Part shown: piece after piece, positions 4,622 through 38,390 of the stretch
How the letters are laid out: every line of letters starts with the position of its first letter
Position numbering within the stretch: the first letter of the stretch is position 1
From: Melioribacteraceae bacterium
GTDB lineage: Bacteria > Bacteroidota > Ignavibacteria > Ignavibacteriales > Melioribacteraceae
Direction: 5' to 3'
Length of the DNA stretch: 64,000 nucleotides
Assembly: GCA_026417375.1 (NCBI GenBank)
Contig: JAOADJ010000013.1
Span: 1-64,000, forward strand
Program-made: the position numbers and the translations under genes
The notes under the pieces: generated by a model
Seen by the model: the letters and a program-made list of their open reading frames with translations, nothing else
The model's database searches: none
What the model was told of the DNA's origin: nothing

Positions 4622-7300
4622 ATGAAAAAAATCATTACGAAATTAATTTTATTAATTACAATACCAACTTTTGTTTTTGCCGGCACAACAGGTAAGCTCA
4701 CTGGTAAAGTAATTGATAAAAAAACAGGAGAGCCGTTACCCTTTGTAAATGTTGTTATTGAAGGAACTTCATTGGGTGCCGCAACCGATCTTGATGGAAA
4801 ATATACTATACTAAATATTCCTCCCGGAAAGTATAGTGTGAAATTTCAATACGTAGGTTATCAATCAGTTGTTATTCAAAATGTACAAATATCAATCGAT
4901 TTAACTACAACTCAGGATGTTGTAATGGAAGAAACTGCTGTTGAAATGCAGGCAATTGTTGTTGAAGGTAAAGCAGATAAAATTCAAAAAGATATTACTT
5001 CTAGCCAGGCAAGAGTAACATCAGAAGAAATTAAAAATTTACCTGTTGCTGAACTTTCTGATGTCCTTCAACTACAAGCTGGTGTTACAAGAGGTGCTGG
5101 TGGAGAATTTCATATTCGTGGCGGTCGTTCTTCTGAAATTGCTTATTGGGTAAATGGTATTTCTATTACCGATGCTTTTGACAATAGCCGTGGAATTGAA
5201 ATTGACAATTCAAGTGTTCAGGAATTACAAGTAATAAGTGGAACATTCAATGCTGAATATGGACAAGCTCTTTCAGGAATTGTTAATACTGTAACAAAAG
5301 AGGGAGGACAATCTCTAAAAGGTGATGTTAAAGTTTATGGTAGTGATTATGCAAGTAACTTTACAGATTATTTTGTCGGTATAGACAAATTTAGTCCGAT
5401 TGCAAACTATAATGTACAAGGAAGTCTTAGTGGACCCATTCCATTTACAAATAACAAACTAACATTTTTTACAAATCTTAGATACGTATATGATGATGGA
5501 TATTTATATGGTTACAAAAAATATAATACAGATGGAACTCCAGCCGATGGAAAATTAACTGCAATGAATTGGAATAAAAGATTAATTGGACAAGCAAATT
5601 TAGCATGGTTGCTTGCTGGTGCAATTAAACTTAATGCCGAAGTATTATTTTCAAATGAAAAGTTTAGAGATTATAGTCATTTCTTTAAATGGAATCCCGA
5701 TGGTGATGTAAAGAAATTCGCAAATAGTTATAATGCAACGTTTACATTAACACATACTTTATCAAGTAAAACTTTTTACACATTAAAAATTTCTGATTTC
5801 TATAAAGACTTTAAAGAATACTTATATGAAGATCCATTCGATTCGAGATACTTTCACCCCGATTCTTTAAGAACTGTCGGTTATGCTTTTGTAACAAAAG
5901 GAACAAACCTTCATCGTTTTTACAGAGAAACAAATACATTAATTGGTAAAATAGATTTTACAAGTCAAATTTCTGAAAATCACTTAATTAAATTTGGTTT
6001 TGAAGGAAGAACTCACAAACTTGCATTTGACGATTATTATCTCGAACCTTTAAGAGTAAATGGAGTTCCTGTTGAACCATTTAAACCTTCGATACCAGAA
6101 GCTAACACTCCAAACAGAACAAAATATGATGCAGAACCAATAGAATTTTCCGCATATATTCAAGATAAAATTGAATATCAAAGTGTAATTATTAACATTG
6201 GATTACGATTAGATTATTTTAATTCAAAAGGAAATATTTTAGCTGATCCAACTGATCCAAATATTTATTTACCATTAAGAACAGAATTAGAAAAATTACC
6301 AATATCGGAAAGAGAACAATATTTCTATAAAAAAGCAGAACCTAAATGGTCTATCGGACCACGTTTTGGTGTGGCTTATCCAATTAGCGATCAAGGAGTT
6401 TTACATTTTTCTTATGGACAATTTTTACAAATTCCATCTTTTCAATATTTATTTAATCGCGGTCCTTACTTGGTTCCTAATACCGGAAGTGGTTATGGAC
6501 CTTACGGTAACCCGGATTTAAAACCACAACAAACAGTAATGTATGAAATTGGTTTTAAACAACAATTCTTTGAAGATTTTTCTTTAGACGTAACCGGCTT
6601 CTATCGAGATATTAGAAACTGGATTACTGCGGGTCCTCTTATTTCAACACGTAATTTAGTTTCATATTCAACTTTTATTAATAAAGATTATTCAAACGTA
6701 AAAGGTATTACATTTAACTTGAATAAAAGATTTACTAATCATTATTCAATTGATTTGAATTACACTTATCAAGTTGCTGAAGGAAGTAATTCAAATCCTG
6801 AAGATGAATTTTTTGCACAGCTTGGAAATAACGAACCGACATTATATTTAATTCCACTCGATTGGGATCAAAGACATTTACTTAATCTATCACTTTTTGT
6901 TGGTGATGTAGATTGGGGAATTTCAACAATAGCACGTTATGGAACAGGATTACCATACACACCATCAATAACTCAATTTACTGCTGATAGAGGAATAACA
7001 TCTGGCTTGCAAAGAAACAGCAGAAGAAGACCAACACAATTTTCAGTTGATCTTAGATTACACAAATCTTTAAATGTACTTGGATTGAATGTTACTACAT
7101 TTTTGCGTGTCTTTAATTTACTTGATAATAAAATTGCTGTTAATGTTTTTGGTGATACAGGAAAGCCAGATTATACAACAGAAGGAAAAAATATTGGTTA
7201 TGATCCCAACAGACCAAATACAGTTGAAGAATATTTACGTTATCCATGGAATTATGGAGAACCAAGAAGAGTTGAATTTGGATTTGAATTTTCATTCTAA
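4622..7300 (+). CDS. TonB-dependent outer-membrane receptor with carboxypeptidase-regulatory-like N-terminal domain
   Basis: The protein is 892 aa when started at the ATG at 4622, which follows TTGGAGCG. An in-frame TTG at 4610 is less likely because the signal peptide begins MKKIITKLILL. Domains in order are: signal peptide; a CarboxypepD_reg-like beta-sandwich at about 24-110 (GKVIDKKTGEPLPFVNVVIEG, then GAATDLDGKYTILNIPPGKY); a TonB plug (VAELSDVLQLQAGVTRGAGG, FHIRGGRSSEIAYWVNG, AEYGQALSGIVNTVTKEGG); and a beta-barrel ending in EFGFEFSF with the expected terminal Phe. It lies between a parvulin gene and a large secreted protein gene. The substrate is unknown; no SusD-type partner is present. 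Confidence 0.9.
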   Translation: MKKIITKLILLITIPTFVFAGTTGKLTGKVIDKKTGEPLPFVNVVIEGTSLGAATDLDGKYTILNIPPGKYSVKFQYVGYQSVVIQNVQISIDLTTTQDVVMEETAVEMQAIVVEGKADKIQKDITSSQARVTSEEIKNLPVAELSDVLQLQAGVTRGAGGEFHIRGGRSSEIAYWVNGISITDAFDNSRGIEIDNSSVQELQVISGTFNAEYGQALSGIVNTVTKEGGQSLKGDVKVYGSDYASNFTDYFVGIDKFSPIANYNVQGSLSGPIPFTNNKLTFFTNLRYVYDDGYLYGYKKYNTDGTPADGKLTAMNWNKRLIGQANLAWLLAGAIKLNAEVLFSNEKFRDYSHFFKWNPDGDVKKFANSYNATFTLTHTLSSKTFYTLKISDFYKDFKEYLYEDPFDSRYFHPDSLRTVGYAFVTKGTNLHRFYRETNTLIGKIDFTSQISENHLIKFGFEGRTHKLAFDDYYLEPLRVNGVPVEPFKPSIPEANTPNRTKYDAEPIEFSAYIQDKIEYQSVIINIGLRLDYFNSKGNILADPTDPNIYLPLRTELEKLPISEREQYFYKKAEPKWSIGPRFGVAYPISDQGVLHFSYGQFLQIPSFQYLFNRGPYLVPNTGSGYGPYGNPDLKPQQTVMYEIGFKQQFFEDFSLDVTGFYRDIRNWITAGPLISTRNLVSYSTFINKDYSNVKGITFNLNKRFTNHYSIDLNYTYQVAEGSNSNPEDEFFAQLGNNEPTLYLIPLDWDQRHLLNLSLFVGDVDWGISTIARYGTGLPYTPSITQFTADRGITSGLQRNSRRRPTQFSVDLRLHKSLNVLGLNVTTFLRVFNLLDNKIAVNVFGDTGKPDYTTEGKNIGYDPNRPNTVEEYLRYPWNYGEPRRVEFGFEFSF

Positions 7301-7326: not shown

Positions 7327-10300
7327 ATGAACAAAACAATTAAAATATTATTTGCGTTATTTATTTCACTTACGATGACTGCAAATATTGATGCACAATA
7401 TAAACCGGGAAAAGAAAGAGGCGACCCGACTAAACGTGCAAAAGGACAAATGGAAGGAAACAAAATAAGAACTACTGTTTTCAACTTTGGTATGTCTGGT
7501 CGCGAAGGTGGTCAATATCCAATCACTGTACAAACACCTTATGAATGGCCTAAAAACACCGGACAAGTTTATTTAGCTATGCTTGGAATTTTTGTAGGTG
7601 GCGAAGTAGTTGATAACAAAGGAGAAACTCAAAGAATAATTGATGTTTACAATTACAGAAGATCACCCGAAGGTAAATCATGGAATTTTGAACCTGTTCC
7701 GGGCTACAGTAAAACAAATCCTAAAACAAAAGAAAATCAAGTTGCTACAAGTGTTGACCCTGATACCTGGCCCGATAGTTGGCCAGATAGAATGAATGAT
7801 GAAGTTGATCCCGGTTGGAAAGGTGCATGGAATGGTTACTTCGGAAAAAATATTTTCAATGCTGATCAGGAAATGTTCTATCGTGCTTCAGATGATAACT
7901 ATTCCAGATATGTAAATTATTTTCCGGATGAAACTGACCTAACAAGAAAAGGATTAGGTATTTTACTTGATGTTAGAGCTTTAGCATGGTCTCAGGTTTT
8001 AGTTGAAGATGCACTTTACTTTTTACATTATGTTAAAAATGATGGAACTAAAGATATTAAAAAAGTTGGTGTAACTTTATGGTATGCAGATTTTGTTGGT
8101 GGTGATGGAGATTCTCAAGATGATATTTCTGAGTTTGATTTAATTCAAGATATCGCATGGTCTCGCGATAATGACCACAAAGCACCAAACTTTGGAAGTA
8201 ATCCTGTTGGAATGGTTGGTGTAACTTTCCTGGAAACTCCCGGTAATGCAGTTGATAGAATTGATAATGATGGCGATAGCCCTGAACAAGGAAATATTAT
8301 TTCTGCTGATATGATAGTTGGTGAAATACCTGATAATCAAGTTGATGATAATGGAAATGGGCTCATTGATGAAAATGAAACTCACATTCCTTTTGGAACA
8401 CAAGTTGGTGTTACTTATTCTGATGGTATCGCTCAACCAATAAGTCCTGAATGGCTTTCTAAACATCCAAGATTTAAATTTGAAAAAAATTCTCCAATTG
8501 TAACTCAACAAATGATCGATCAGGCATCGGCTCCAACAAACAAATGGAAAATTTGGCCACCACTCGATGCATTTCAGCGAGGACAAATTCATTTAATAAA
8601 AGTTACATCAGAAAAACTCGGATTACCTTTTAAAGATAGAATTGATAACGATGGAGATGGTGAAGAAAAAAGCCCCGTCGTAACACAGGCAATGATAATG
8701 GAAGCAGCAAAAGATGCACCTTATTACAGATATAGAGTTAATGATAAAGTTGTTTTATATAATGTTGTTGCATCAACCCTTGGTAAAAAATATGCCGATG
8801 GAATAGACAATGACAATAACGGAGCAATTGATGAAGGTATTGATGATGGAATTGATGTAATGATAGATGAAGCTAGAGATGATGCTTTTGATAACGATTT
8901 TGATTGGGATCCAATCCGTGATGATGTTGGTTTAGATGGAGTTCCTGATACCGGCGACCCGGGTGAAAATGATGGAAAACCAACCAGCGGTGCAAGATTT
9001 GGTTTGCCGGGTGAACCTAAAATTGATGTTACTGACGTTTCAGAAACAGATCAGATTGGTATTACTAATGCAGATTATGTTCCTGCAGGTGGTTTAAATA
9101 TTAACAGCGATGCACAAATGTGGTTCGATTTTATGATCCCGGGAAAATTTTATGATCCTAAAGAAGTTGTTGCCGGTGAATATGATTTGTTTGTTTCTTC
9201 AGGATTATTCCCATTAAAATCGGGTCAAACAGAACCAATTTCTATTGCTATTTTATTTGCCAATGGTCCAGTGCCTGATCCAAATGGTGAATATCGTAAA
9301 AATGAAATTTTAAGAAAAAGAGTTCGTGCTCAGGAAACTTATAATAACGATTATAGATTTGCTAATGCTCCGGTTGCACCAAACGTAACAGCAATTGCCG
9401 GCAATAATAAAGTAACTTTATATTGGGACGATATAGCTGAAAGTACATTCGATCAATATATTGATGCAATTGGTGGAAACGGACGTGATTTTGAAGGTTA
9501 CAAAATTTATCGTGCATCCGATCCAGCGTTCCAAGATGCAGAAAAAATTACAAATGGTTATGGAGTTCTTCAATTTAAAACTCCAATAGCTCAATTCGAT
9601 TTAGTTAATGGAATAAAAGGATTTGACCCTGTTGGAATTGATGGAGTTAAATATTATTTAGGAAATGATACTGGAATTAAACATACATTTGTTGATACAA
9701 CAGTTCAAAATGGATTTACTTATTACTATGCAGTTGTAGCTTACGATTTTGGATTCCCGGCTGGTCAAATTGCTCCTTCAGAATCACCAATAAGAATTTC
9801 TTTACAAGCAGATGGCTCTGTTAAACTTGGACAAAATGTTGTTCGTGTAAAACCAGAGGCTCCGGCTGCTGGTTATGTGCCACCAACTTTAGGTAAAATT
9901 CAATTAAAACAAGGAACAACTTCCGGTACTGTTACATATGAAATAGTTGATATAAATAAAATTAAAGATGGCCATGTTTATCATATTACTTTTGAAGATA
10001 CAATTAAAGTCTCAAAAAGATTAGGTCAACCCGATACATTAACTACTAAGAATTGGACTTTGAGAGATTCAACAGCCGGAGTTACTTTAATTAATAAGAG
10101 TAAAATTTTAGCATCAGATTATGAACAACCTTTAACAGATGGATTCAGATTAAAATTCTTCAATGAAAAAAGAGTTGAATTGGATAGAACAGTTTCTGTA
10201 TGGAATGATCCTAAAATTGTAGATTATCGTTTCGAAAAATTCCAAGCTACTGGTGGTTTTATTGGTGAAGAAAGACCTAACGATTACAGAATTGAATTCG

Positions 10301-11001
10301 GAGAAGTTGGAACTGGTACTTCAACTGAATTGAAACTTGGTGCTAATACATTCCCATCTAAGAAAACAAACTTTAAAGTATTCAACTTAAGTACTAATAA
10401 ATATATTGAATTCGCATTCATCGAGATAGATGGAAATGATGGAAACTTAACCTCAAATGGAGCAATAAGAGATAGAATTATTTTCTTAGAACCAGATAAA
10501 ACAGGAAAATTAGTTTATACATGGTGGTTCTATTTATATGATACTCCAAGTGAAACTTTAGGTACAAGATTTCCAAAAGCCGGAGATAAAATAGAACTTA
10601 GATTGAAGAAACCATTTTTATCTGCTGATGTTTTCCGTTTTGTAGCTAAAAGCGGAAAAATAGATTTAGACTTAGCTAAACAGGAACTTGAAAAAGTAAA
10701 AGTTGTTCCTAATCCTTATGTTGCATCTGCAATGTGGGAACCAAAGAATCCATATTCAAGCGGACGTGGTCCTCGTTCTTTACATTTTACACATTTACCA
10801 AATAAATGTACTATAAGAATATTTACTGTTAATGGAGAACTTGTTGACGTTATTGAACATGAAAGTCCATTTAACAATGGTACAGCCGAATGGAAAATGT
10901 TAACTAAAGATAACCTGAATGTAGCTTATGGTGTTTATGTTTATCATATTGAAGCACCTGGTATTGGTGAAAAGATAGGTAAGTTCGCAATTATTAAATA
11001 A
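7327..11001 (+). CDS. Large secreted protein with EF-hand-like Asp repeats, fibronectin-like domain and T9SS-type C-terminus
   Basis: This 1224-aa protein starts with a signal peptide (MNKTIKILFALFISLTM). Three clusters of Asp/Asn-rich loops resemble calcium-binding dockerin or thrombospondin-3 motifs: near residue 310 (RIDNDGDSPEQG, then DDNGNGLIDENE), near 437 (RIDNDGDGEE) and at 488-530 (GIDNDNNGAIDEGIDDG). A fibronectin-III-like module follows from about 680 (VTLYWDD to YYYAVVAYDFG). The last 100 residues carry VVPNPYV and AYGVYVYHIEAPG ending KFAIIK, the layout of a FlgD-like or T9SS sorting domain. A strong AGGAG precedes the ATG. Its place between a TonB receptor and a PorV-like gene supports surface export. 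I recognise no enzymatic domain. Confidence 0.7.
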   Translation: MNKTIKILFALFISLTMTANIDAQYKPGKERGDPTKRAKGQMEGNKIRTTVFNFGMSGREGGQYPITVQTPYEWPKNTGQVYLAMLGIFVGGEVVDNKGETQRIIDVYNYRRSPEGKSWNFEPVPGYSKTNPKTKENQVATSVDPDTWPDSWPDRMNDEVDPGWKGAWNGYFGKNIFNADQEMFYRASDDNYSRYVNYFPDETDLTRKGLGILLDVRALAWSQVLVEDALYFLHYVKNDGTKDIKKVGVTLWYADFVGGDGDSQDDISEFDLIQDIAWSRDNDHKAPNFGSNPVGMVGVTFLETPGNAVDRIDNDGDSPEQGNIISADMIVGEIPDNQVDDNGNGLIDENETHIPFGTQVGVTYSDGIAQPISPEWLSKHPRFKFEKNSPIVTQQMIDQASAPTNKWKIWPPLDAFQRGQIHLIKVTSEKLGLPFKDRIDNDGDGEEKSPVVTQAMIMEAAKDAPYYRYRVNDKVVLYNVVASTLGKKYADGIDNDNNGAIDEGIDDGIDVMIDEARDDAFDNDFDWDPIRDDVGLDGVPDTGDPGENDGKPTSGARFGLPGEPKIDVTDVSETDQIGITNADYVPAGGLNINSDAQMWFDFMIPGKFYDPKEVVAGEYDLFVSSGLFPLKSGQTEPISIAILFANGPVPDPNGEYRKNEILRKRVRAQETYNNDYRFANAPVAPNVTAIAGNNKVTLYWDDIAESTFDQYIDAIGGNGRDFEGYKIYRASDPAFQDAEKITNGYGVLQFKTPIAQFDLVNGIKGFDPVGIDGVKYYLGNDTGIKHTFVDTTVQNGFTYYYAVVAYDFGFPAGQIAPSESPIRISLQADGSVKLGQNVVRVKPEAPAAGYVPPTLGKIQLKQGTTSGTVTYEIVDINKIKDGHVYHITFEDTIKVSKRLGQPDTLTTKNWTLRDSTAGVTLINKSKILASDYEQPLTDGFRLKFFNEKRVELDRTVSVWNDPKIVDYRFEKFQATGGFIGEERPNDYRIEFGEVGTGTSTELKLGANTFPSKKTNFKVFNLSTNKYIEFAFIEIDGNDGNLTSNGAIRDRIIFLEPDKTGKLVYTWWFYLYDTPSETLGTRFPKAGDKIELRLKKPFLSADVFRFVAKSGKIDLDLAKQELEKVKVVPNPYVASAMWEPKNPYSSGRGPRSLHFTHLPNKCTIRIFTVNGELVDVIEHESPFNNGTAEWKMLTKDNLNVAYGVYVYHIEAPGIGEKIGKFAIIK

Positions 11002-11034: not shown

Positions 11035-12060
11035 ATGATAAATAAAAAATTAATAATGGTTTTAATATTGGCTGCTTTTACACTGCAGCCAATACTTGCA
11101 CAAACAGTTACTAAAACCGGAACAACTGCCGCAAAATTTTTAAGTATTGGAGTTGGTGCTCGTGCAAATGCAATGGGGGGTGCTTATAGTTCAGTTGCAA
11201 ATGATGTTTCTGCTATTTACTGGAATCCAGCGGGTATTGCTTCCGTAAATGAAACACAAACATTATTTACATATACCAGAATGTTTGCTGATATTAATAT
11301 TAATTATTTCGGGTTTGTAATTCCAGCGGGTGATTATGGAACTTTTGGTGCAAGTGTAACTGCATTAAATGTTGGTGATATGGAAGTAACAACTGAATTT
11401 TTACCAGATGGAACAGGTGAAAAATTCTCGGCCGGTAGTTATGCTTTTACATTATCTTACGCAAAATATATAACTGAAAATTTTGCTGTTGGTGCGAATG
11501 TAAAATACATAAGAGAATCAATTTATAATTCAAGTGCATCTGGTGTTGCATTTGATATTGGAACAGTATTTATGACTCCATTCTACGGAATTAAATTTGC
11601 TTCAAGTATATCTAACTATGGTTCAAAAATGCAAATGTCTGGTGATGATTTACTGGTTCGTCACGATCCCGATCCACAAAGAGCAGGCAATAATCAAACT
11701 ATTGACGCATATTATAAAACTGATGAATTTGAACTTCCTTTAAGATTACAGGTTGGAATTTCTCGTGATTTTAGAATTCTTGATGAACACCGGTTAACTT
11801 TTGCCATTGATGCAACTCATCCAAATGATAATCATCAGTGGGTTAATGTTGGAGGAGAAATTTCTTTGTTTAATGATTTAGTTTCCTTAAGAGGAGGATA
11901 TAAAACTCTTTTCTTAAAAGATACACAAGAAGGATTGACCTTAGGAGCCGGAATTAAATATGATGGATTAGGCTTCTTTAAAATTGCAGTTGATTATTCA
12001 TATCAACAATTAAAGTTTTTAGACAACATGCACAGTTTTACTATTTTACTAGGCTTTTAA
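11035..12060 (+). CDS. PorV/PorQ-family outer-membrane protein
   Basis: This 341-aa protein has a signal peptide (ending ILAQ), then the family hallmark at residues 34-65: AAKFLSIGVGARANAMGG, then AYSSVANDVSAIYWNPAG. This resembles FadL-type barrels and is diagnostic of the PorV/PorQ/UPF0164 group. The rest alternates like beta-strands and ends HSFTILLGF. PorV is the T9SS shuttle that binds C-terminal sorting signals at the outer membrane. Here the gene sits directly between two genes for large secreted proteins with C-terminal sorting-like domains. A dedicated role for this copy is an inference. Confidence 0.85.
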   Translation: MINKKLIMVLILAAFTLQPILAQTVTKTGTTAAKFLSIGVGARANAMGGAYSSVANDVSAIYWNPAGIASVNETQTLFTYTRMFADININYFGFVIPAGDYGTFGASVTALNVGDMEVTTEFLPDGTGEKFSAGSYAFTLSYAKYITENFAVGANVKYIRESIYNSSASGVAFDIGTVFMTPFYGIKFASSISNYGSKMQMSGDDLLVRHDPDPQRAGNNQTIDAYYKTDEFELPLRLQVGISRDFRILDEHRLTFAIDATHPNDNHQWVNVGGEISLFNDLVSLRGGYKTLFLKDTQEGLTLGAGIKYDGLGFFKIAVDYSYQQLKFLDNMHSFTILLGF

Positions 12061-12130
12061 TTTAAGGTGAAAAATGATAATTTCCACCACAATAAAAAAC
12101 AAAACTAATAACCAACAATATGGAGGCACT

Positions 12131-14023
12131 ATGAAAAAAACTCTATTACTTTTTTCTCTACTTTTGCTAGTCTCCTTTACGTTTGTATCTGCACAGAAAA
12201 AGAAAGTAACTTTTAATGCAGATATGCGTATTGAAGCGCTAAAGGGAACATTTGACCCGGCAAAAGATGTAGTAACTGTACCGGGTGCATTTAACAACTG
12301 GTTAAATGAACCACCAGCTAATACAACTAAAATCATGAAAGATGATGATAAAGATAATATCTATACGTTATCTTATGATTTAGACCCGGGAACTTATGAC
12401 TATAAGTTCAATATTGGTACTGGCTGGGAAGGTAAAGATGAACCTGGTGACAATAGCAAAGTTACTGTAGGAACAACCGATGTAACAATTAACAGATTCT
12501 TCAAAGGAGCTGCTTATACAAAAGTTCCTACACAAGTTACTTTTAACGTTGATATGACTTTACCAATTAAAACCGGCTTCAATCCTGCAAGTGGTAAAGT
12601 ATATGTAGCTGGAAACTTTACAGATTGGGGAACAAGTGCAGTTGAAATGACTGACCCTGATGGTGATAAAGTTTATTCAGTTAAAGTATCAAAAACTGCT
12701 GCTGGTGCAGATATTAAAAGTGGTGACCTTTTAATTTACAAATTTATCTACAGTGCAAATACACCAAGCAACGGTACATGGGAATCAATTAATGAAGGTA
12801 CTGATTACTTTGGTGGTGACAAAAACAGAATTTATGGTGTTGTAGATGGTACAAATACTGTTACACGTTTTTGGAATAACAAAAATCCTAATGTGGAAAT
12901 TAAAGATGGTGTTATTTCTTTCTCTGTAGATATGAGCGTACTTGAAAGATTGAAAGTTTACAACCCAGCAACAGATGTTTTACAAGTAAGAGGTGGATTC
13001 AATGGATGGAGCGATTCTGATAAAGAACGTTCTATTATGCTTCAGGATTTCTTAAGACCAACAGACTGGTTCTTGTTAGTTCAATTCTTAAAAACTGAAG
13101 TTCCATCTACTCAAGAATATAAATATTATGTTGTATTAAAAAATCCTGGAATTTGGACTGATGGTTGGGAAAGACCATTATCAATGGGTGGCGGTAACAG
13201 AACTGTTACCTTCAAAGGATTACCAAATCAAGAAGAACCTAAAGTATATTACGATGATGTTCATCCGGCATTTTATGTTCCGGCAGGAACATCTATCAGC
13301 ATTAAATTCCGTGTTGATATGAAAGATGCATTCGACCCAACAAAAGTTGCTATACCAATGAAAGCTGAAGATAAACTTTATTGGATTGCAGAACAACCAT
13401 TATTTGCAAGAATTATGGGTTGGGTTGATAAAGATGAAATGACAGAATTCGAAATGAAAGATCCTGATGGCGATAAGATTTATGAAGGAACTTTAACAGT
13501 TAAAGGCCCGGCATTCAACGCTTTTGAATATCGTTATGGAATTCAAAGAGCAGCTGATAAATCTTGGAAAATTGAAGAAGCTGGTTTCGGTAAAAATGCT
13601 TATCGTGTAAGATATATTCCTCAAACTGGTGCAAGTAAATTTACTCAACCATATACTGCACCACTCGATAAGTGGACTGACAAAGCTGATAAATCTGATC
13701 AGGTTGAAAAATGGCCATCAGGTTTAAGTGATATTCGTGATCTTGAATTTGGTTTACCAACCAACTATTCTCTTGAACAAAATTATCCAAATCCATTTAA
13801 TCCAACTACTTCAATCAGATTTGCAATTCCAAAAGATGAAATGGTTAGCTTGAAAGTGTTCAACGTTTTAGGACAAGAAGTTGCAACATTAGTTAATCAA
13901 AATTTAAAAGCTGGTTCTTATGCATTTGATTTTGATGCAAGAAAATTAACTAGTGGTGTTTATTTCTATACAATTCAAGCTGGTAAATTTAACGAAACAA
14001 GAAAAATGTTACTCTTGAAATAA
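12131..14023 (+). CDS. T9SS-sorted secreted protein with four tandem glycogen/starch-binding-like (E-set) repeats
   Basis: The protein is 630 aa from the ATG at 12131, which follows TATGGAGGCACT. An in-frame ATG at 12074 would bury the signal peptide (MKKTLLLFSLLLLVSF). Four repeats open with a VTFNVDM-type strand at about residues 26, 136, 262 and 390. The first three continue with (F/Y)(D/N)PA, then VPGAFNNW, VAGNFTDW or VRGGFNGW, the signature of CBM20/48- or AMPK-beta-like sandwiches. The second and fourth also carry MTDPDGDKVY and MKDPDGDKIY. The last 80 residues are a canonical T9SS type A sorting domain: SLEQNYPNPFNPTTSI, LKVFNVLGQEVATLV, LTSGVYFYTI, ending KMLLLK. No catalytic domain is visible, so a surface glycan-binding or structural role is an inference. 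Confidence 0.8.
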   Translation: MKKTLLLFSLLLLVSFTFVSAQKKKVTFNADMRIEALKGTFDPAKDVVTVPGAFNNWLNEPPANTTKIMKDDDKDNIYTLSYDLDPGTYDYKFNIGTGWEGKDEPGDNSKVTVGTTDVTINRFFKGAAYTKVPTQVTFNVDMTLPIKTGFNPASGKVYVAGNFTDWGTSAVEMTDPDGDKVYSVKVSKTAAGADIKSGDLLIYKFIYSANTPSNGTWESINEGTDYFGGDKNRIYGVVDGTNTVTRFWNNKNPNVEIKDGVISFSVDMSVLERLKVYNPATDVLQVRGGFNGWSDSDKERSIMLQDFLRPTDWFLLVQFLKTEVPSTQEYKYYVVLKNPGIWTDGWERPLSMGGGNRTVTFKGLPNQEEPKVYYDDVHPAFYVPAGTSISIKFRVDMKDAFDPTKVAIPMKAEDKLYWIAEQPLFARIMGWVDKDEMTEFEMKDPDGDKIYEGTLTVKGPAFNAFEYRYGIQRAADKSWKIEEAGFGKNAYRVRYIPQTGASKFTQPYTAPLDKWTDKADKSDQVEKWPSGLSDIRDLEFGLPTNYSLEQNYPNPFNPTTSIRFAIPKDEMVSLKVFNVLGQEVATLVNQNLKAGSYAFDFDARKLTSGVYFYTIQAGKFNETRKMLLLK

Positions 14024-31607: not shown

Positions 31608-34600
31608 TTATTTTAATTCTGGAATTCTACCCGGTGTCCACGGTGCATTTATTTTCTCTAACTCTTTTTCAATTGACTTCAACTCAACTTCATTTATCTT
31701 TTTAAGTTGTGCAATTATTGGTTGAATTTCTTCATATAAAGTTTCATATGCTACAAATTGATTTTTTGTAATATTTGAAGTTGAACGAGCAGTTATTGAA
31801 ATCATATCACTTAATCTATTATTTAACGGAACAGGAGAAGGTGGTATTTCTTCACGACTAGCCTTTGGTGTTGGTCCATTAAATTTATAAATAATATCAG
31901 CAATTTCTTTTGAAGTTGCGTCAGCTTTTTTAAATAAATCATAATTTGCTTTTGAAGAATTATTAATTGCTTGTTTAATTGCTTCATATTTCTTCTGCAA
32001 TTCTTCTGCTAAACGTAAAGCACCTTGTGCTGTTCTGGATAATTCTGCTGCTTTTTGTTGGAACTCAACAACTTTTGCAAAATCATCTGCAGGGAGTGAA
32101 CTGTTTTTAAGCAGTTCAACATTAAAAGGTTCTGGTCCAGATAATTTTTTCTCTTCACCACGAACAACCATCGACATTGAAACAAAATATTTTCCCGGTT
32201 TAACAAAATATCCCGATGAAGAAAATCTTCCACGTCCACTTGTTGAAACAGGTTCAAATTTATCCGTTGTTATAGGAGATAAACTTTCCATTCTTAAATC
32301 CCAAACAATTCTATTTATACCACTACTAGCTGATTTTGTAAGTTTTCTAATTACATTATTGTTTTCATCTGTTATTGTGAAAATTAAATAAGGAGCTTTT
32401 TCATCTGCTTCAGCTCTTAATTCTTCAAACGTTGGTTGTGGAATTGGTTTTCCATCTTTAAATAATTCTTTTTCCTTAGCTTGTCTTTGTGCTTTTAAAG
32501 TTTTTGGAACATCTTTAACATAATAAGTTATTGTTGCACCAAATTCCGGGTTAGGAGCTTTGAAATAAGTTGAACCTTGTCCATATCTACCACTTTTTTG
32601 TACATACATCAAAGCATTTTTAATTGGAAAGATGTGAGAATCTTTTTCTAATAAATCTTTTGTTAAAAATCTTAATGGTGAATAATCATCAAGAATGTAA
32701 AAGCCGCGACCAAAAGTAGCAACAACTAAATCTTTTTCTCCTTCGTGAATAGTTATATCCGGCACTTTAACTTTTGGCAAACCATTTTTTAACTGAATCC
32801 ATTTTTCACCACCATCAACTGTAAAGAAAACTCCCCATTCAGTTCCAACAAAAAGTAAATTTGGATTAACAGGATCTTCAACAATTGTATTTACCGCTCC
32901 ATCTTGTGGTAAATTACCTGCAATAGATTTCCATGTTTTTCCTTTATCATTACTTTTTAATAAGTAGGGTTTGAAGTCATCTCTTTTATGATTGTTAAAA
33001 GAAGCATAAACAACATTTTCATCAAAACGGGAAGGTAGAATATCGCTAACCAATGTGAATTTAGGAACACCAGGAAAATCTTCAATTTTTCTCCATGACT
33101 TTAAATCTTCAGTAACTTGAATTAATCCATCGTCAGTTCCTGCATAAAGAAGATTTTCTTTTTTAGGTGATTCAGCCAAAGAAACTACTAAACCAAAAAG
33201 TGAAGTGCTTACATCTTTAGCAACAGCATCATAGCTCCAATATTTACCCATTACAGGAAAAGAATTTCTATCTGTTTTTGTTGAAAGATCATCACTAATA
33301 ACCTGCCAGGAATTTCCACGATCATCACTTCTAAAAACTTTTTCGGCAGCAATGTATAATCTTGTTGGAGAATGTGGACTAATAAAAAATGGTGTGTCCC
33401 AATACCATTTGTAAGTTTTTTCACCTTTAGCAGGTTCTGGACGAATATCAACAGATTCACCATTTAATTTATCGTAACGAACAATATTTCCATATTGCCA
33501 AGCTGAGTAAACAATATTTGGATTGCCGGGTTCAGTAGCTTGGAAAAATCCATCACCACCAGCTGTAACAGTCCAATCACTATTTACAATTCCATCACTG
33601 CTTAATGTTCTTGATGGTCCAAAAAAACTATTGTTATCTTGTGTTCCACCATATACATTATAAAATGGTTTGTCGTCATCAACTGATACACGATAGAATT
33701 GTGTTACAGGTAAGTTGCATTTAAAAACAAATGTTTTACCTGAATCAAAAGTTTCATAAACACCACCATCACCACCAATTAGAAAATGATTTGTATCGTT
33801 AGGATCAATCCAAATTGCATGATCATCTACATGGCGGTTTTCTGTGCTTATTGGTTTCCAGGTTTTGCCACCATCTTCAGTAACATGAGAATTAGTTTCA
33901 ACAGAATAAACTTTGTTTACATCTTTCGGGTCGCAAAAAATTTCGTTGTAATATTGACCAGCTTCATGATGGTCGCTCATTTTTTCCCAACTTGCCCCAC
34001 GATTTGTTGAACGATAGAAACCACTACCATTTTCTGCAGCTTGCATAATTAAATAAATCACATCAGGATTAGCCGGAGAAATTGCAATACCCATTCCACC
34101 AATATCAACTTTGGGTAAACCATTCATAATTTTTTCCCAGGTAGCACCGGCATCAGTTGATTTATAAACTGCAGATTCTGGTCCACCATTTATTTTTGTA
34201 AAAATATGTCTTCTTCTTTGCTCTGATGTTGCATATAATACGTTTGAATCTCTTGGATCCATTACAATATTATTAACACCAGTGTTTTCAGAAATATTTA
34301 AAACTTTATTCCAGGATTTACCACCATCGGTAGTTTTATAAAGACCACGTTCACCACCAGGACCCCAAACAGATCCTTCTGCAGCAACATAAACTGTATT
34401 AGGGTTTTTAGGATCAACAACAATTCCACCAATTTGGCGAGAATCTTTTAATCCCATGTGTTTCCAACTTTTTCCACCATCTAAAGATTTATAAACTCCA
34501 TATCCATAACCAAGTGCACGTTGATGATTGTTTTCTCCAGTGCCTACCCAAACTACATTTGGATTGGTTGGATCTAAAACTACAACTCCAAGGGAATATG

Positions 34601-34886
34601 GAAGTGTATCTGCAATAGCTTCCCATGTTGTTCCGCTGTTAGTTGTTTTCCATAAATGACCACTTGCTGTTGCAACATAATATTCACTATGATTGTTTGG
34701 ATTAACTGCAAAGTCTGCAATCCGACCACTTGTAAATGCTGGTCCAATTCCTCTAAATTTTAATCCGGAAACTGTGCTGCTTGTTAACCATTCTTTTTCT
34801 TTCTTTTCATTTCCTTTTTCTTTTTGTGCAGTTAAAGAAAATGAAAATAAAAGTAGAATAAGAAAAACAAGTTTTAAATATCTCAT
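31608..34886 (-). CDS. Secreted VPS10/sortilin-like BNR-repeat beta-propeller protein
   Basis: This 1092-aa protein has a signal peptide (LVFLILLLFSFSLTAQ). Many BNR/Asp-box repeats of the S-x-D-x-G-x-T-W form follow across residues 60-740, such as SLDGGKSWKHM, TTDGGKSWNKV, STDAGATWEKI and SNDKGKTWKSI, giving one or two 10-bladed propellers. A beta-rich module is at about 850-930, and the helical C-terminal part ends PWTPGRIPELK. It is often annotated as a sortilin-type glycosyl hydrolase, but no catalytic residues are identifiable. It follows the tricorn-like gene on the same strand, separated by a structured 237-bp gap. Confidence 0.8.
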   Translation of the reverse strand: MRYLKLVFLILLLFSFSLTAQKEKGNEKKEKEWLTSSTVSGLKFRGIGPAFTSGRIADFAVNPNNHSEYYVATASGHLWKTTNSGTTWEAIADTLPYSLGVVVLDPTNPNVVWVGTGENNHQRALGYGYGVYKSLDGGKSWKHMGLKDSRQIGGIVVDPKNPNTVYVAAEGSVWGPGGERGLYKTTDGGKSWNKVLNISENTGVNNIVMDPRDSNVLYATSEQRRRHIFTKINGGPESAVYKSTDAGATWEKIMNGLPKVDIGGMGIAISPANPDVIYLIMQAAENGSGFYRSTNRGASWEKMSDHHEAGQYYNEIFCDPKDVNKVYSVETNSHVTEDGGKTWKPISTENRHVDDHAIWIDPNDTNHFLIGGDGGVYETFDSGKTFVFKCNLPVTQFYRVSVDDDKPFYNVYGGTQDNNSFFGPSRTLSSDGIVNSDWTVTAGGDGFFQATEPGNPNIVYSAWQYGNIVRYDKLNGESVDIRPEPAKGEKTYKWYWDTPFFISPHSPTRLYIAAEKVFRSDDRGNSWQVISDDLSTKTDRNSFPVMGKYWSYDAVAKDVSTSLFGLVVSLAESPKKENLLYAGTDDGLIQVTEDLKSWRKIEDFPGVPKFTLVSDILPSRFDENVVYASFNNHKRDDFKPYLLKSNDKGKTWKSIAGNLPQDGAVNTIVEDPVNPNLLFVGTEWGVFFTVDGGEKWIQLKNGLPKVKVPDITIHEGEKDLVVATFGRGFYILDDYSPLRFLTKDLLEKDSHIFPIKNALMYVQKSGRYGQGSTYFKAPNPEFGATITYYVKDVPKTLKAQRQAKEKELFKDGKPIPQPTFEELRAEADEKAPYLIFTITDENNNVIRKLTKSASSGINRIVWDLRMESLSPITTDKFEPVSTSGRGRFSSSGYFVKPGKYFVSMSMVVRGEEKKLSGPEPFNVELLKNSSLPADDFAKVVEFQQKAAELSRTAQGALRLAEELQKKYEAIKQAINNSSKANYDLFKKADATSKEIADIIYKFNGPTPKASREEIPPSPVPLNNRLSDMISITARSTSNITKNQFVAYETLYEEIQPIIAQLKKINEVELKSIEKELEKINAPWTPGRIPELK

Positions 34887-35123: not shown

Positions 35124-38100
35124 TTATCTAACTTCGTATTTAGGTTGTTTTGGTTCCTGGTATGGTTTTGATTTTAATTCGTCCATAATTATTTCAACAG
35201 CTTTTTCAAGTTGTGGATCAATTCCTTTTGCTAATTTAGAAGGATCATCAATTTGATAAATGTCTGGATCTACACCATGTCCTTCTTTAAACCATTTCCC
35301 ATCAGGATCATACATTCTGAAAGTGGGAACAGTTACACTACCTCCATCAATTAATTGAGGAGTGCCGGTAATACCAATTAATCCGCCCCATGTTCTTGTT
35401 CCAATTAATTTACCTAAACCAGCTTTTCTAAAATAATCTGGAAATGCGTCGCCACCAGAACCACTCCAACCATTGATCAACATTACTTTTGGGCCGAAAT
35501 GAGCAACAGGAGGCCATTGCCAATTTTTTCCATCCCGAACAGCCCAATATGCAAGTGGTTTTCTGTTTAATAATTCAATGAAACGATCGGGTATTTGTCC
35601 TCCATTGTTAAATCTTTCGTCAATTATTAAAGCATCTTTATTGAACTGTGCATAAAACATTCTTACTAATTCATATTGTCCATCAGAAACACCAGTACTT
35701 GGAACATAAATATAACCGACACGACCATTTGTTTTTTCTTCAACATATTTTCTGTTTTGTTCAATCCAATCTAAATTTCTTAATCTTGTTTCTGATGAAA
35801 GTGTTTGAACTATTATTTTTTTTGCACCTTCAAAAGTTGGTTTATCATTAACAGTAAGTTCAATTGTTTTTTCCGCAAGTCCTTCAAAAGCATAGTATGG
35901 TGCTTTTGTAATATCGAGTGGTTCATCATTTACTGCCAAGATGTAATCACCTGTTTTTATTTTTAATCCTGGTTGTAAAAGTGGTGAACGTATTTCTGTA
36001 TCCCACACAGCACCATTTATAATTTTTTTAATTCTATAAAATCCATTTGCAATTTCCCAGTCAATACCAAGATAACCTATGTTTCTTTGTTCAGCTTCTT
36101 CTGTATCGCCGCCACTTCTGTATGTGTGAGAAGCATTGAGTTCAGAAATCAATTCGCCAAGTATGTAATTTAAATCCCATCGGGTTACACAATAATCAAC
36201 CAGTTTACCGTAACGTTCTTTCATTTCTTTCCAATCAACACCATGCATGTTTTTGTCATAAAAGAAATCTCTTTCGAATCTCCAGACATCATTAAAAATT
36301 TGTTTCCATTCTTCTTTTGGATTAACAGTCATTTCCATCATTGAAGTTGGAATTTTTTTATCAAGTTTTTGATTTTCCGCAATATCAACAATTGAATAAT
36401 TTCCATTTGAAGCAACAAGAATTTTCTTTCCATCTGCGGATACCTGATATGAGTTTGCATCATCAACTATTTTTTTCTCTTCTCTTTTTTCTAAATCATA
36501 AAAATATATTGGTCTGTTCCTTTCTGAAGAGCAACTATTTGGTAAACGGTGAAATATTAATTTACCGGATACAGCAGATAGTCGTGCATAATTTCCATTT
36601 TGTGGTGGAAGTATTACAACACGGTTTTCAAAATTTTTGAAATCGATAATTGTTTCTTTTTGTTTGTCATTTTTCTTTTCATCTTTAGCTGTTTCTTTTT
36701 TGGAATCATCTTTTTTGGGATCTTCCTTTTTTATTTCATCTTTTTTAATTGAAGTTGTATCATTCTTAGGAGCAAGTGGTGAAGTTATATTTTCATTCAA
36801 AGTAACTAATGCTAATTTAGTTGCATTTGCATAAACAAACGAATTGTCAAAATCGCTGTAAATTGGAGAAAAGTTTCTATCTGTTAAGAAATAAAGATAT
36901 TTACCATCAGGATCGAAAACGGGTTCAGTATCTTTATAAAATCCTGAAGTTGCTTGTGTAACTTTTTGTTCTTTAACATCATAAATAAAAATTGCACTAC
37001 TTCTGTTTTCAAGATCATTTTGATAAGCTAACCAGCGGCTATCTGATGACCAGCTTGGTTTAAATGAATCTAAATTTCCTTGATACCAATATTTACCTTT
37101 ATCAACATTATATATTTTATTTTTTTCTAAATCATAAATTTTAATTTCCATTGCTTTATCAACAAAAGCAATCATTTTGCTATTCGGAGACCAATATAAA
37201 TTATACCGATAACCTTCACCAAGAGATGTTAATATTTTTTCTTCATTTTGTTTTTCTAAGTCCCGGATTGTAAGTTCATATTCACCGGATTTATCAGACC
37301 AATATGCTATAAATTTTCCATTTGGTGACCAGGATGGATAACGTTCTGCAACACCAGAAGATTTTGTTAAATTTATTACTGCACCATTTTCTGCAGGAAG
37401 ATTAAATAATTCACCACGAGCTTCAAATATTGCACGTTTTCCATCGGGTGATATTGAAAAACCCTGTATCAGGTTCGAAACCTTTTCAACTTGTGGTAAT
37501 AATGTAATTGCATCAGTTATTACATTAACTTTTACTTCGCGATATTTTTCATCATTAAGATTTAGTAAAAATAATTTTCCACCAGCTTCAAAAACAATTT
37601 CATTTGGTCCAAGTGAAGGAAAATGAATATCATAATCTGTGAATTTTGTTATTTGTTTTAATTCTTTTGTGTCAAGGTTATATGACCAGATATTCATTCT
37701 GATTTCAGGACCACGATCAGATAAAAAATAAATCTTTCTTCCGCTCCACATTGGCAATTCATCACCAGCAGGATTTTCGATGATATAATCAACAGTCAAT
37801 TTATTTAAATCAAACAACCAAATATCTGCAGCATCACCACCACGATAGCGTTTCCATGTTCTGAATGATTCTGTTTTATTTGAGTAAACAATTTGTTTCC
37901 CATCCGGAGAAAGAGAAGCATGTTCACCATAAGGAACAGGAAGTTTTTCAGGTAATCCACCATTTGAAGAAACTTTGTAGAACTGACTAAATCTTTGTTT
38001 TCCGCTTTCAGCAGAAGAAGCAAATAAAATATTTTTTCCATCCGGATACCAATCAATTATTCTATCCGGCATTCCATGATTTGTAATTCTTTTAGGAATT

Positions 38101-38390
38101 CCTCCAGTAGTTGGAATAACATAAACATCAGTATTTCCATTATAATTTCCACTAAAAGCTATTTGAGAACCGTCTGGCGAAAATTTAGGAAAAACTTCCT
38201 GCCCCTTTGGTGAGCTTAACTTATAAGCTGTTCCTCCTTCTTTTTGAACAATCCATAAATCTCCGGCATATGAAAATACAATATGAGTTTTGGAAACATC
38301 TGGATATTGAAGCATACGGGCATCAATTTGTGCAAAAAGATTTACACTAAATGATAAAATTAAGATTGAAATAATTGCAAGATTTTTCAT
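35124..38390 (-). CDS. Tricorn-like secreted protease (beta-propeller, PDZ, S41 peptidase)
   Basis: This 1088-aa protein has a signal peptide (ISILILSFSVNLFAQ). A TolB/WD40-like propeller covers about residues 25-540 with repeated SPDGKxIxF blades. A Lys/Asp-rich linker is at 545-590, then a second beta region, and a core with the catalytic-type His segment ELNASHTYRSGGD near 755. A PDZ domain follows (GLKIKTGDYILAVND). The S41 peptidase domain has RFNNGGQIPD and the nucleophile-serine segment INGWSGSGGDAFP near 995. Tricorn-type proteases degrade peptides; the signal peptide places this one outside the cytoplasm. Confidence 0.9.
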   Translation of the reverse strand: MKNLAIISILILSFSVNLFAQIDARMLQYPDVSKTHIVFSYAGDLWIVQKEGGTAYKLSSPKGQEVFPKFSPDGSQIAFSGNYNGNTDVYVIPTTGGIPKRITNHGMPDRIIDWYPDGKNILFASSAESGKQRFSQFYKVSSNGGLPEKLPVPYGEHASLSPDGKQIVYSNKTESFRTWKRYRGGDAADIWLFDLNKLTVDYIIENPAGDELPMWSGRKIYFLSDRGPEIRMNIWSYNLDTKELKQITKFTDYDIHFPSLGPNEIVFEAGGKLFLLNLNDEKYREVKVNVITDAITLLPQVEKVSNLIQGFSISPDGKRAIFEARGELFNLPAENGAVINLTKSSGVAERYPSWSPNGKFIAYWSDKSGEYELTIRDLEKQNEEKILTSLGEGYRYNLYWSPNSKMIAFVDKAMEIKIYDLEKNKIYNVDKGKYWYQGNLDSFKPSWSSDSRWLAYQNDLENRSSAIFIYDVKEQKVTQATSGFYKDTEPVFDPDGKYLYFLTDRNFSPIYSDFDNSFVYANATKLALVTLNENITSPLAPKNDTTSIKKDEIKKEDPKKDDSKKETAKDEKKNDKQKETIIDFKNFENRVVILPPQNGNYARLSAVSGKLIFHRLPNSCSSERNRPIYFYDLEKREEKKIVDDANSYQVSADGKKILVASNGNYSIVDIAENQKLDKKIPTSMMEMTVNPKEEWKQIFNDVWRFERDFFYDKNMHGVDWKEMKERYGKLVDYCVTRWDLNYILGELISELNASHTYRSGGDTEEAEQRNIGYLGIDWEIANGFYRIKKIINGAVWDTEIRSPLLQPGLKIKTGDYILAVNDEPLDITKAPYYAFEGLAEKTIELTVNDKPTFEGAKKIIVQTLSSETRLRNLDWIEQNRKYVEEKTNGRVGYIYVPSTGVSDGQYELVRMFYAQFNKDALIIDERFNNGGQIPDRFIELLNRKPLAYWAVRDGKNWQWPPVAHFGPKVMLINGWSGSGGDAFPDYFRKAGLGKLIGTRTWGGLIGITGTPQLIDGGSVTVPTFRMYDPDGKWFKEGHGVDPDIYQIDDPSKLAKGIDPQLEKAVEIIMDELKSKPYQEPKQPKYEVR

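Follow-up and report, generated by a model that had tools for sequence, protein, structure and literature searches.

The Sus system of Bacteroides is built from SusC, SusD, SusE/F and SusG together with periplasmic enzymes. The role of SusE/F in Sus is also described in passages of PMC8211771, and according to parts of PMC3534657, M. roseus uses many polysaccharides and carries a sus operon (Mros0764-0758) annotated as encoding SusC, SusD and SusE. Despite such polysaccharide use, sections of PMC10576277 report that few susCD genes occur among the carbohydrate gene clusters of Ignavibacteriales. As to surface anchoring in P. gingivalis, excerpts of PMC5562754 state that PorQ anchors PorZ and PorV anchors PorU, and the published type A tails treated in portions of PMC12618676 all use the general PorV.

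We analysed a window (the whole 64,000-nucleotide stretch of Melioribacteraceae DNA, from a genome of 2.83 Mb that is 99% complete) in which five genes on one strand form an operon that ends with the gene for a four-module protein, P0001:

2932..4599, +: PPIC-type peptidyl-prolyl isomerase (PPIase), first gene of the conserved set (PF13616, PF00639; conserved position)
4622..7300, +: TonB-dependent receptor, 892 aa (PF00593, PF07715, PF13715; TIGR04056 86.8 bits versus a cut-off of 368.25)
7327..11001, +: P0003, secreted protein of 1224 aa whose C-terminal domain is PorZ-like; proposed lid at the cell surface (structure match 5m11)
10660..10998, +: C-terminal domain of P0003, of a class common to the genome's six PorV-linked proteins (structure, profile search)
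11035..12060, +: P0002, PorV/PorQ-family outer-membrane barrel (NF033709 214.9 bits versus 90)
12131..14023, +: P0001, predicted four-module T9SS-exported binding protein, 630 aa (ORF, Pfam, NCBIfam)

The PPIase and receptor genes are 10 bases apart (or 22, taking the ATG at 4622 as the receptor start), and the gaps that follow are 26 (receptor to P0003), 33 (P0003 to P0002) and 70 bases (P0002 to P0001). Among the papers listed by searches of open-access PMC, none appears, from its title and the opening of its abstract, to describe this operon. Fold, sequence and gene neighbourhood argue that P0001 is probably a non-enzymatic surface protein for alpha-glucan capture, the counterpart of SusE/SusF in a glycan-import locus that would do without SusD and be anchored by T9SS. 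It would work like SusE/F, with modules of CBM20/48 type and export by T9SS.

Like SusE/SusF, P0001 combines tandem non-catalytic modules of starch-binding type with predicted export to the outer surface and a gene beside that of a TonB receptor, and in one relative (G011) the operon, like Sus, adds GH13, GH31 and a surface amylase. Unlike SusE/SusF, P0001 scores below the cut-off of PF16411 (22.4 versus 27.5 bits) and has no lipobox, a T9SS tail taking the place of the lipid anchor; the partner receptor, unlike SusC, stays far below the TIGR04056 cut-off, and the partner lid P0003, unlike SusD, has no SusD_RagB match. Judged by curated families, the operon is a predicted Sus counterpart in proposed working and gene content that lacks SusC/SusD homologues. 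The family of bacteria does possess SusD: a genuine SusC/SusD pair lies elsewhere in the same genome (L126, contig C38; TIGR04056 412.5 bits, SusD_RagB 29.6 bits, the genome's only SusD match), and M. roseus is reported to have its sus operon (PMC3534657, in part). M. roseus belongs to the same family and uses alpha-glucans (same excerpts), and Mros0764-0758, compared here by annotation only, may correspond either to the present operon or to a true SusCD pair like that on C38.

Export signals and modules of P0001

The P0001 gene starts with an ATG at 12131, preceded by GGAGG at 12122-12126, and ends at 14023. Its product divides as follows:

12131..12193, +: signal peptide, ending ...FVSA-Q, without lipobox Cys (by eye from the translation)
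12194..12514, +: module 1, residues 22-128, AMPK1_CBM/X25/CBM20-type, with W57, K92 and W99 (PF16561, PF22058)
12515..12892, +: module 2, residues 129-254, CBM48/CBM20-type, with W166, K204 and W217 (PF02922, CBM20 fold)
12893..13291, +: module 3, residues 255-387, divergent CBM20/53-type, with W293, K331 and W346 (CBM53 below cut-off)
13292..13690, +: module 4, residues 388-520, degenerate, without the binding set (hhalign to modules 1-3)
13778..14023, +: T9SS type A sorting tail (residues 550-630) and stop codon (PF18962, TIGR04183)

By eye, the signal peptide ends in ...FVSA-QKKK, without the cysteine found at the mature N-terminus of the SusE/SusF lipoproteins. The tail was recovered by PF18962 (E 1.9e-12) and by TIGR04183 (45.8 bits versus a cut-off of 23), so that P0001 carries both marks of T9SS type A cargo, the signal peptide (by eye) and the tail, in agreement with the original prediction of a secreted protein of surface type with a T9SS sorting domain. 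The same prediction had assigned it no catalytic domain, and a Pfam scan of the whole protein indeed returned no catalytic family. The tail type recurs in the genome with 65 matches including P0001, whereas at E<=0.001 the rest of the genome yielded no module paralogue. The nearest named relative of P0001 is from Stygiobacter electus (80% identity in the best segment). The tail closest to that of P0001 (78% identity) is that of a 958-aa secreted GH13/CBM48 protein (L115:6424-9297:-, contig C30 of the same genome), other near-full-length tails being at most 61% identical. This suggests that the two proteins, whose functions are likely related, have exchanged tails.

The four modules are mutually related, well beyond chance. 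Profile comparison by hhalign gave E values of 3e-34 (modules 1 and 2), 6e-22 (1 and 3) and 2e-20 (2 and 3), and towards module 4 of 9e-14 (from module 2), 3e-12 (from 1) and 8e-8 (from 3), versus best control values of 0.027 for the modules against the sorting tail and 0.018 for modules 1 and 2 against 20 column-shuffled versions each of modules 3 and 4. All four open with the strand that had been predicted as V-x-F-x-V/A-D-M (VTFNADM, VTFNVDM, ISFSVDM and IKFRVDM), except that modules 3 and 4 have I in place of the leading V, and the FNxW/FTDW motif expected in the first three modules reads FNNW, FTDW and FNGW, with IMGW in module 4.

Curated families placed the first two modules when the whole protein was scanned: module 1 reached 33.9 bits with PF16561 (AMPK1_CBM, cut-off 26.8) and 29.2 with PF22058 (cut-off 27), and module 2 reached 31.2 bits with PF02922 (CBM_48, cut-off 22.4). 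Scanned alone as short pieces, they fell under the cut-offs (24.9 and 17.8 bits), and modules 3 and 4 had no curated CBM family score above cut-off. Across orthologues (Pfam, E<=0.1), AMPK1_CBM was found in module 1 of 17/25, CBM_48 in module 2 of 24/29 and CBM_20 in the same module of 22/29, and CBM53 in module 3 of 18/32 (below cut-off in P0001 itself); module 4 matched no CBM family in any of 32 members. A profile search of the PDB returned glucoamylase, STBD1 and AMPK-beta chains for modules 1 and 2, with CGTase starch-binding domains also matched, weak matches for module 3 (lowest E 0.045) and none for module 4. The alignment behind these counts comprises P0001 and 31 of 44 array hits (arrays being P0001 and its homologues); the 13 omitted are a duplicate (L039, of L048), five with extra domains or modules (L041, L042, L043, L067 and L072) and those that are remote or another gene (L075, L076, L079-L082 and L086).

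An AlphaFold2 model of P0001 built from 32 sequences has a mean pLDDT of 86.5 and a pTM of 0.63. Using VIA-align, module 2 (residues 130-250 of the model) was superposed on the CBM20 fold of STBD1 (8x8k, Z 12.1, rmsd 1.9 A over 95 residues) and on CGTase and glucoamylase domains (Z 10-12); the structural check proposed for every module hence bears on module 2, modules 1, 3 and 4 having been barely sampled by this search. A whole-chain Foldseek search was set aside as a guide to the fold, S-layer, titin and other Ig-like chains coming top with TM about 0.1. From family and fold matches, modules 1 and 2 are assigned to the CBM20/CBM48 starch-binding group with module 3 as a putative divergent member, and module 4 appears related to the group only through the other modules.

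We take residue numbers of 1ac0 plus 508 to correspond to A. niger glucoamylase numbering, and in an alignment to 1ac0 the module 2 residues W166/K204/W217 fall on CBM20 site 1. In A. niger glucoamylase this site is Trp543/Lys578/Trp590, according to passages of PMC9920598. The set is invariant in module 2 (29/29 rows) and, as W57/K92/W99, in module 1 (25/25 rows), despite a mean identity to P0001 of 47% and 39%, respectively. Module 3 keeps W293 and K331 in 32/32 rows and W or Y at 346 in 28/32. Module 4 retains W431 in 30/32, but its lysine position holds R in 20/32 and K in 4/32, and it has no conserved second tryptophan (W479 in 15/32). Site 1 is accordingly complete in modules 1 and 2, near-complete (with W/Y) in module 3 and disrupted in module 4, to which the predicted reading of four glycan-binding repeats does not extend; for modules 1-3 the starch/glycogen type that had been foreseen is supported by CBM families, the CBM20 fold and site-1 residues, binding itself being predicted. 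P0001 thus resembles the CBM20/CBM48/CBM53/AMPK-beta superfamily in the fold of module 2, the Pfam matches of modules 1 and 2 and the Trp/Lys/Trp site 1, and differs from it in that its modules sit on no enzyme and that module 4 has neither site nor family match.

Arrays linked to GH53 (8/8 loci) and the one linked to GH66 likewise retain the Trp/Lys/Trp set in the modules scored, and because of this it is no proof of alpha-glucan specificity: conservation of these residues argues for a putative glycan platform, not for a particular glycan. A remote array (L079) departs from the set in 2/3 modules.

Conservation of the operon and neighbouring enzymes

Adjacency was scored for the window together with 27 loci retrieved through their array hits; upstream sequence is present in 25 of these 28 (L058, L059 and L071 start with the gene at a contig end and are outside the count, and L039 and L043 were skipped as duplicates). 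The barrel gene lies directly upstream of the array in 23/25 informative loci, the exceptions being L064 and L072, and where the contig reaches, the barrel is preceded by P1224 (the P0003 orthologue) in 22/22, the TonB receptor in 20/20 and the PPIase in 19/19. Across 97 genomes, P1224 and the array occur together in 26, each alone in one (P1224 in G034; the array in G003, which is 75% complete) and neither in 69 (Fisher 2.6e-21, not corrected for kinship or linkage). In G034, G047 and G049 the receptor-P1224-barrel set stands without an adjacent array.

Relatives place enzymes around this core. In G011, the order of genes along one strand is GH31, GH13 (maltogenic type), PPIase, TonB receptor, P1224, barrel, array, T9SS GH13 and sodium:solute (SSF) symporter, and near a contig start in G042 the array is followed by a T9SS GH13 and the symporter. 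GH13 was present in 8/28 four-module neighbourhoods (seven by Pfam; L059 by BLAST, 56%) and LacI-type regulators in 5/28 (two by Pfam), while the neighbourhoods of the window and of its nearest relative, L048, contain no glycoside hydrolase of the kinds searched. The binding array changes with the neighbouring enzyme: a second array class, about 680 aa long, is immediately followed by a GH53 gene in 8/8 loci (three by Pfam), and arrays of about 500 aa are followed by GH66 (L145) or by a rhamnosidase-type gene (L143). The eight GH53-linked loci come mostly from the batch fetched around P1224 hits (L130-L149), in which adjacency is a biased count; L083 is from the array batch. The presence of a T9SS GH13 was dropped as a functional marker, since it was found in 83/97 genomes and is too common, and a 793-aa neighbour in L066 with an amylase-like start was not counted, having no GH13 match above cut-off.

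Array proteins also vary in length. In those of L042, L043 and L072 (about 1040 aa), the modules are preceded by an extended N-terminal stretch of repeats, by eye of GNVYVTGAF type, and proteins of about 790 aa in L075, L079, L081 and L082 join a different N-terminal region to two or three modules, with a second kind of receptor-lid-barrel set upstream in L079, L081 and L082.

Proposed function and rival readings

Carrying the signal peptide found in its sequence, P0001 would be exported by Sec, cross the outer membrane through the T9SS by way of its type A tail and the general PorV, as its family implies, and then be attached at the cell surface. There, modules 1-3 would hold starch, glycogen or maltodextrin chains on the Trp-Lys-Trp platform, module 4 may be a degenerate spacer or docking module, and surface GH13 enzymes would cut the chains, which may then reach the TonB receptor. 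P0003 would cover this receptor as a lid, fixed in the membrane by a PorV/PorQ-family barrel of its own in the way that PorZ is held by PorQ, and the PPIase may assist folding of the exported proteins. We favour import of alpha-glucans because sister operons carry GH13, GH31 and a symporter, because of the CBM20-type fold and residues and because of the tight operon linkage. The surface glycan capture named in the original prediction is in keeping with the T9SS surface tail, the CBM20/48-type modules and the TonB-receptor operon, binding again being predicted; the coat protein offered beside it fits poorly with a gene that is part of a TonB-receptor operon carrying alpha-glucan enzymes in relatives.

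Multivalent modules, a T9SS surface tail and the lack of an enzyme would equally suit a protein that binds glycans for attachment (to storage granules, plant matter or the cell's own exopolysaccharide) outside uptake, and some arrays do lie outside the receptor operon (L064 and L072). However, the array is tightly linked to the TonB receptor (20/20 where the contig reaches) and, in relatives, to GH13, GH31 and symporter genes, and we regard attachment as quite unlikely. The modules might instead be structural, as S-layer or spacer repeats that bind no ligand: S-layer and Ig-like arrays headed the Foldseek matches, module 4 has no site, and the Trp/Lys/Trp set persists whatever the enzyme. Yet module 2 matches the CBM20 fold (Z 12.1), and it is exactly the ligand-contacting set that is invariant in modules 1 and 2 despite their mean identity of 39% and 47% to P0001, which makes purely structural modules very unlikely. 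That the receptor imports other cargo (heme, cobalamin or a siderophore), with the array as a passenger, is highly improbable; hemin and siderophore receptors are among its best partial NCBIfam scores, but all of these are far below cut-off, and the sister operons carry GH13, GH31, GH53, GH66 and GH16.

The barrel P0002, the proposed lid P0003 and their recurrence

With 214.9 bits in NF033709, P0002 belongs to the PorV/PorQ family; it is below the cut-offs of both PorV (NF033710, 73.6 versus 250) and PorQ (106.6 versus 220), the genome's canonical PorV being encoded beside PorU on contig C36 (NF033710, 255.6 bits, above cut-off). Exactly six proteins of the genome score strongly for the P0003-type C-terminal domain (149-210 bits), the next being PorU at 35 bits, and all six are encoded directly 5' of a PorV-family gene, with a TonB receptor upstream of 6/6 (one cut by the contig end). 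The genome thus has six receptor-lid-barrel units, and PorU/PorV is its seventh pair of C-terminal domain and barrel; three more PorV-family genes above cut-off lack a partner of this kind. Pairwise distances among the C-terminal domains correlate with those among the barrels (r 0.886; 2 of 5040 permutations did as well), also when PorU/PorV is left out (r 0.846, 4 of 720 permutations), although duplication of whole units could cause the same co-divergence.

P0002 had been suggested as a possible dedicated PorV-like shuttle of the four-module protein. The two genes are adjacent, 70 bases apart, and adjacency recurs in 23/25 informative loci; however, the barrel is equally constant beside P1224, even where no array follows (G034, G047 and G049), all six strong C-terminal domains of the P1224 type in the genome have a barrel of their own, and recognition of type A tails falls to the general PorV (PMC12618676, in the portions cited above), which here is encoded elsewhere. 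We therefore consider a private shuttle for P0001 unlikely and the role of P0002 probably misassigned. We infer instead that P0002 holds P0003, not P0001, because 6/6 such C-terminal domains adjoin their own barrel, because PorQ and PorZ set a precedent and because the domain of P0003 is PorZ-like. The pairing resembles PorZ-PorQ and PorU-PorV of P. gingivalis (as presented in excerpts of PMC5562754), and differs from that attachment complex in that the lid gene lies between a TonB receptor and the barrel and that six such units exist here.

P0003 matched no Pfam family at E<=1, SusD_RagB included. Its structure model (pLDDT 63) was too weak to name a fold. An FN3-like part and the PorZ-like C-terminal domain (5m11, Z 11.1, 27% identity) were recognised in it, and a GH94-like match of the N-terminal part (4zle, Z 13.8, rmsd 3.8, 242 residues) is a lead only. 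A profile search of the PDB gave a single match of no use (E 0.048), and no SusD-like chain was among the matches listed for the structure search, which excludes nothing. The poorly modelled middle of P0003 (window 7327-11001) contains repeated Asp-rich stretches of DRIDNDGDG type, calcium-loop-like by eye.

The P0003-type C-terminal-domain class was present in 62/148 genomes sampled from the phylum. In 14 loci outside the order, a receptor adjoins the C-terminal-domain protein in 11, a barrel in 10; L165 and L174 have no unit, L167 has no barrel, in L169 another gene separates the receptor from the lid, and L177 is at a contig edge. Array-type modules lie downstream in four of the 14 (L168, L170, L172 and L176). 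We tentatively propose, at somewhat less than even confidence, that a TonB receptor, a T9SS-type lid and a private PorV/PorQ-family barrel make up a widespread SusD-independent class of outer-membrane glycan importers that extends beyond Ignavibacteria to further classes of the phylum. In this class, the lid would keep its C-terminal domain and be held by it within the dedicated barrel, and the substrate would be set by exchangeable non-enzymatic binding arrays and by glycoside hydrolases (GH13, GH53, GH66 and GH16). If true, such a unit with swappable arrays and enzymes would be a concrete answer to how Ignavibacteriales import sugars, would explain what a large group of PorV/PorQ-family paralogues does and would allow annotators to call glycan loci in genomes without SusD.

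Another receptor-lid-barrel unit of the genome (L117, contig C35) is flanked by GH16/malectin and CBM9 T9SS proteins, and L168 has two tandem lid-barrel pairs behind one receptor. Elsewhere in the window, on the minus strand, a Sortilin/BNR-repeat protein adjoins a tricorn-type protease (31608-34886 and 35124-38390).
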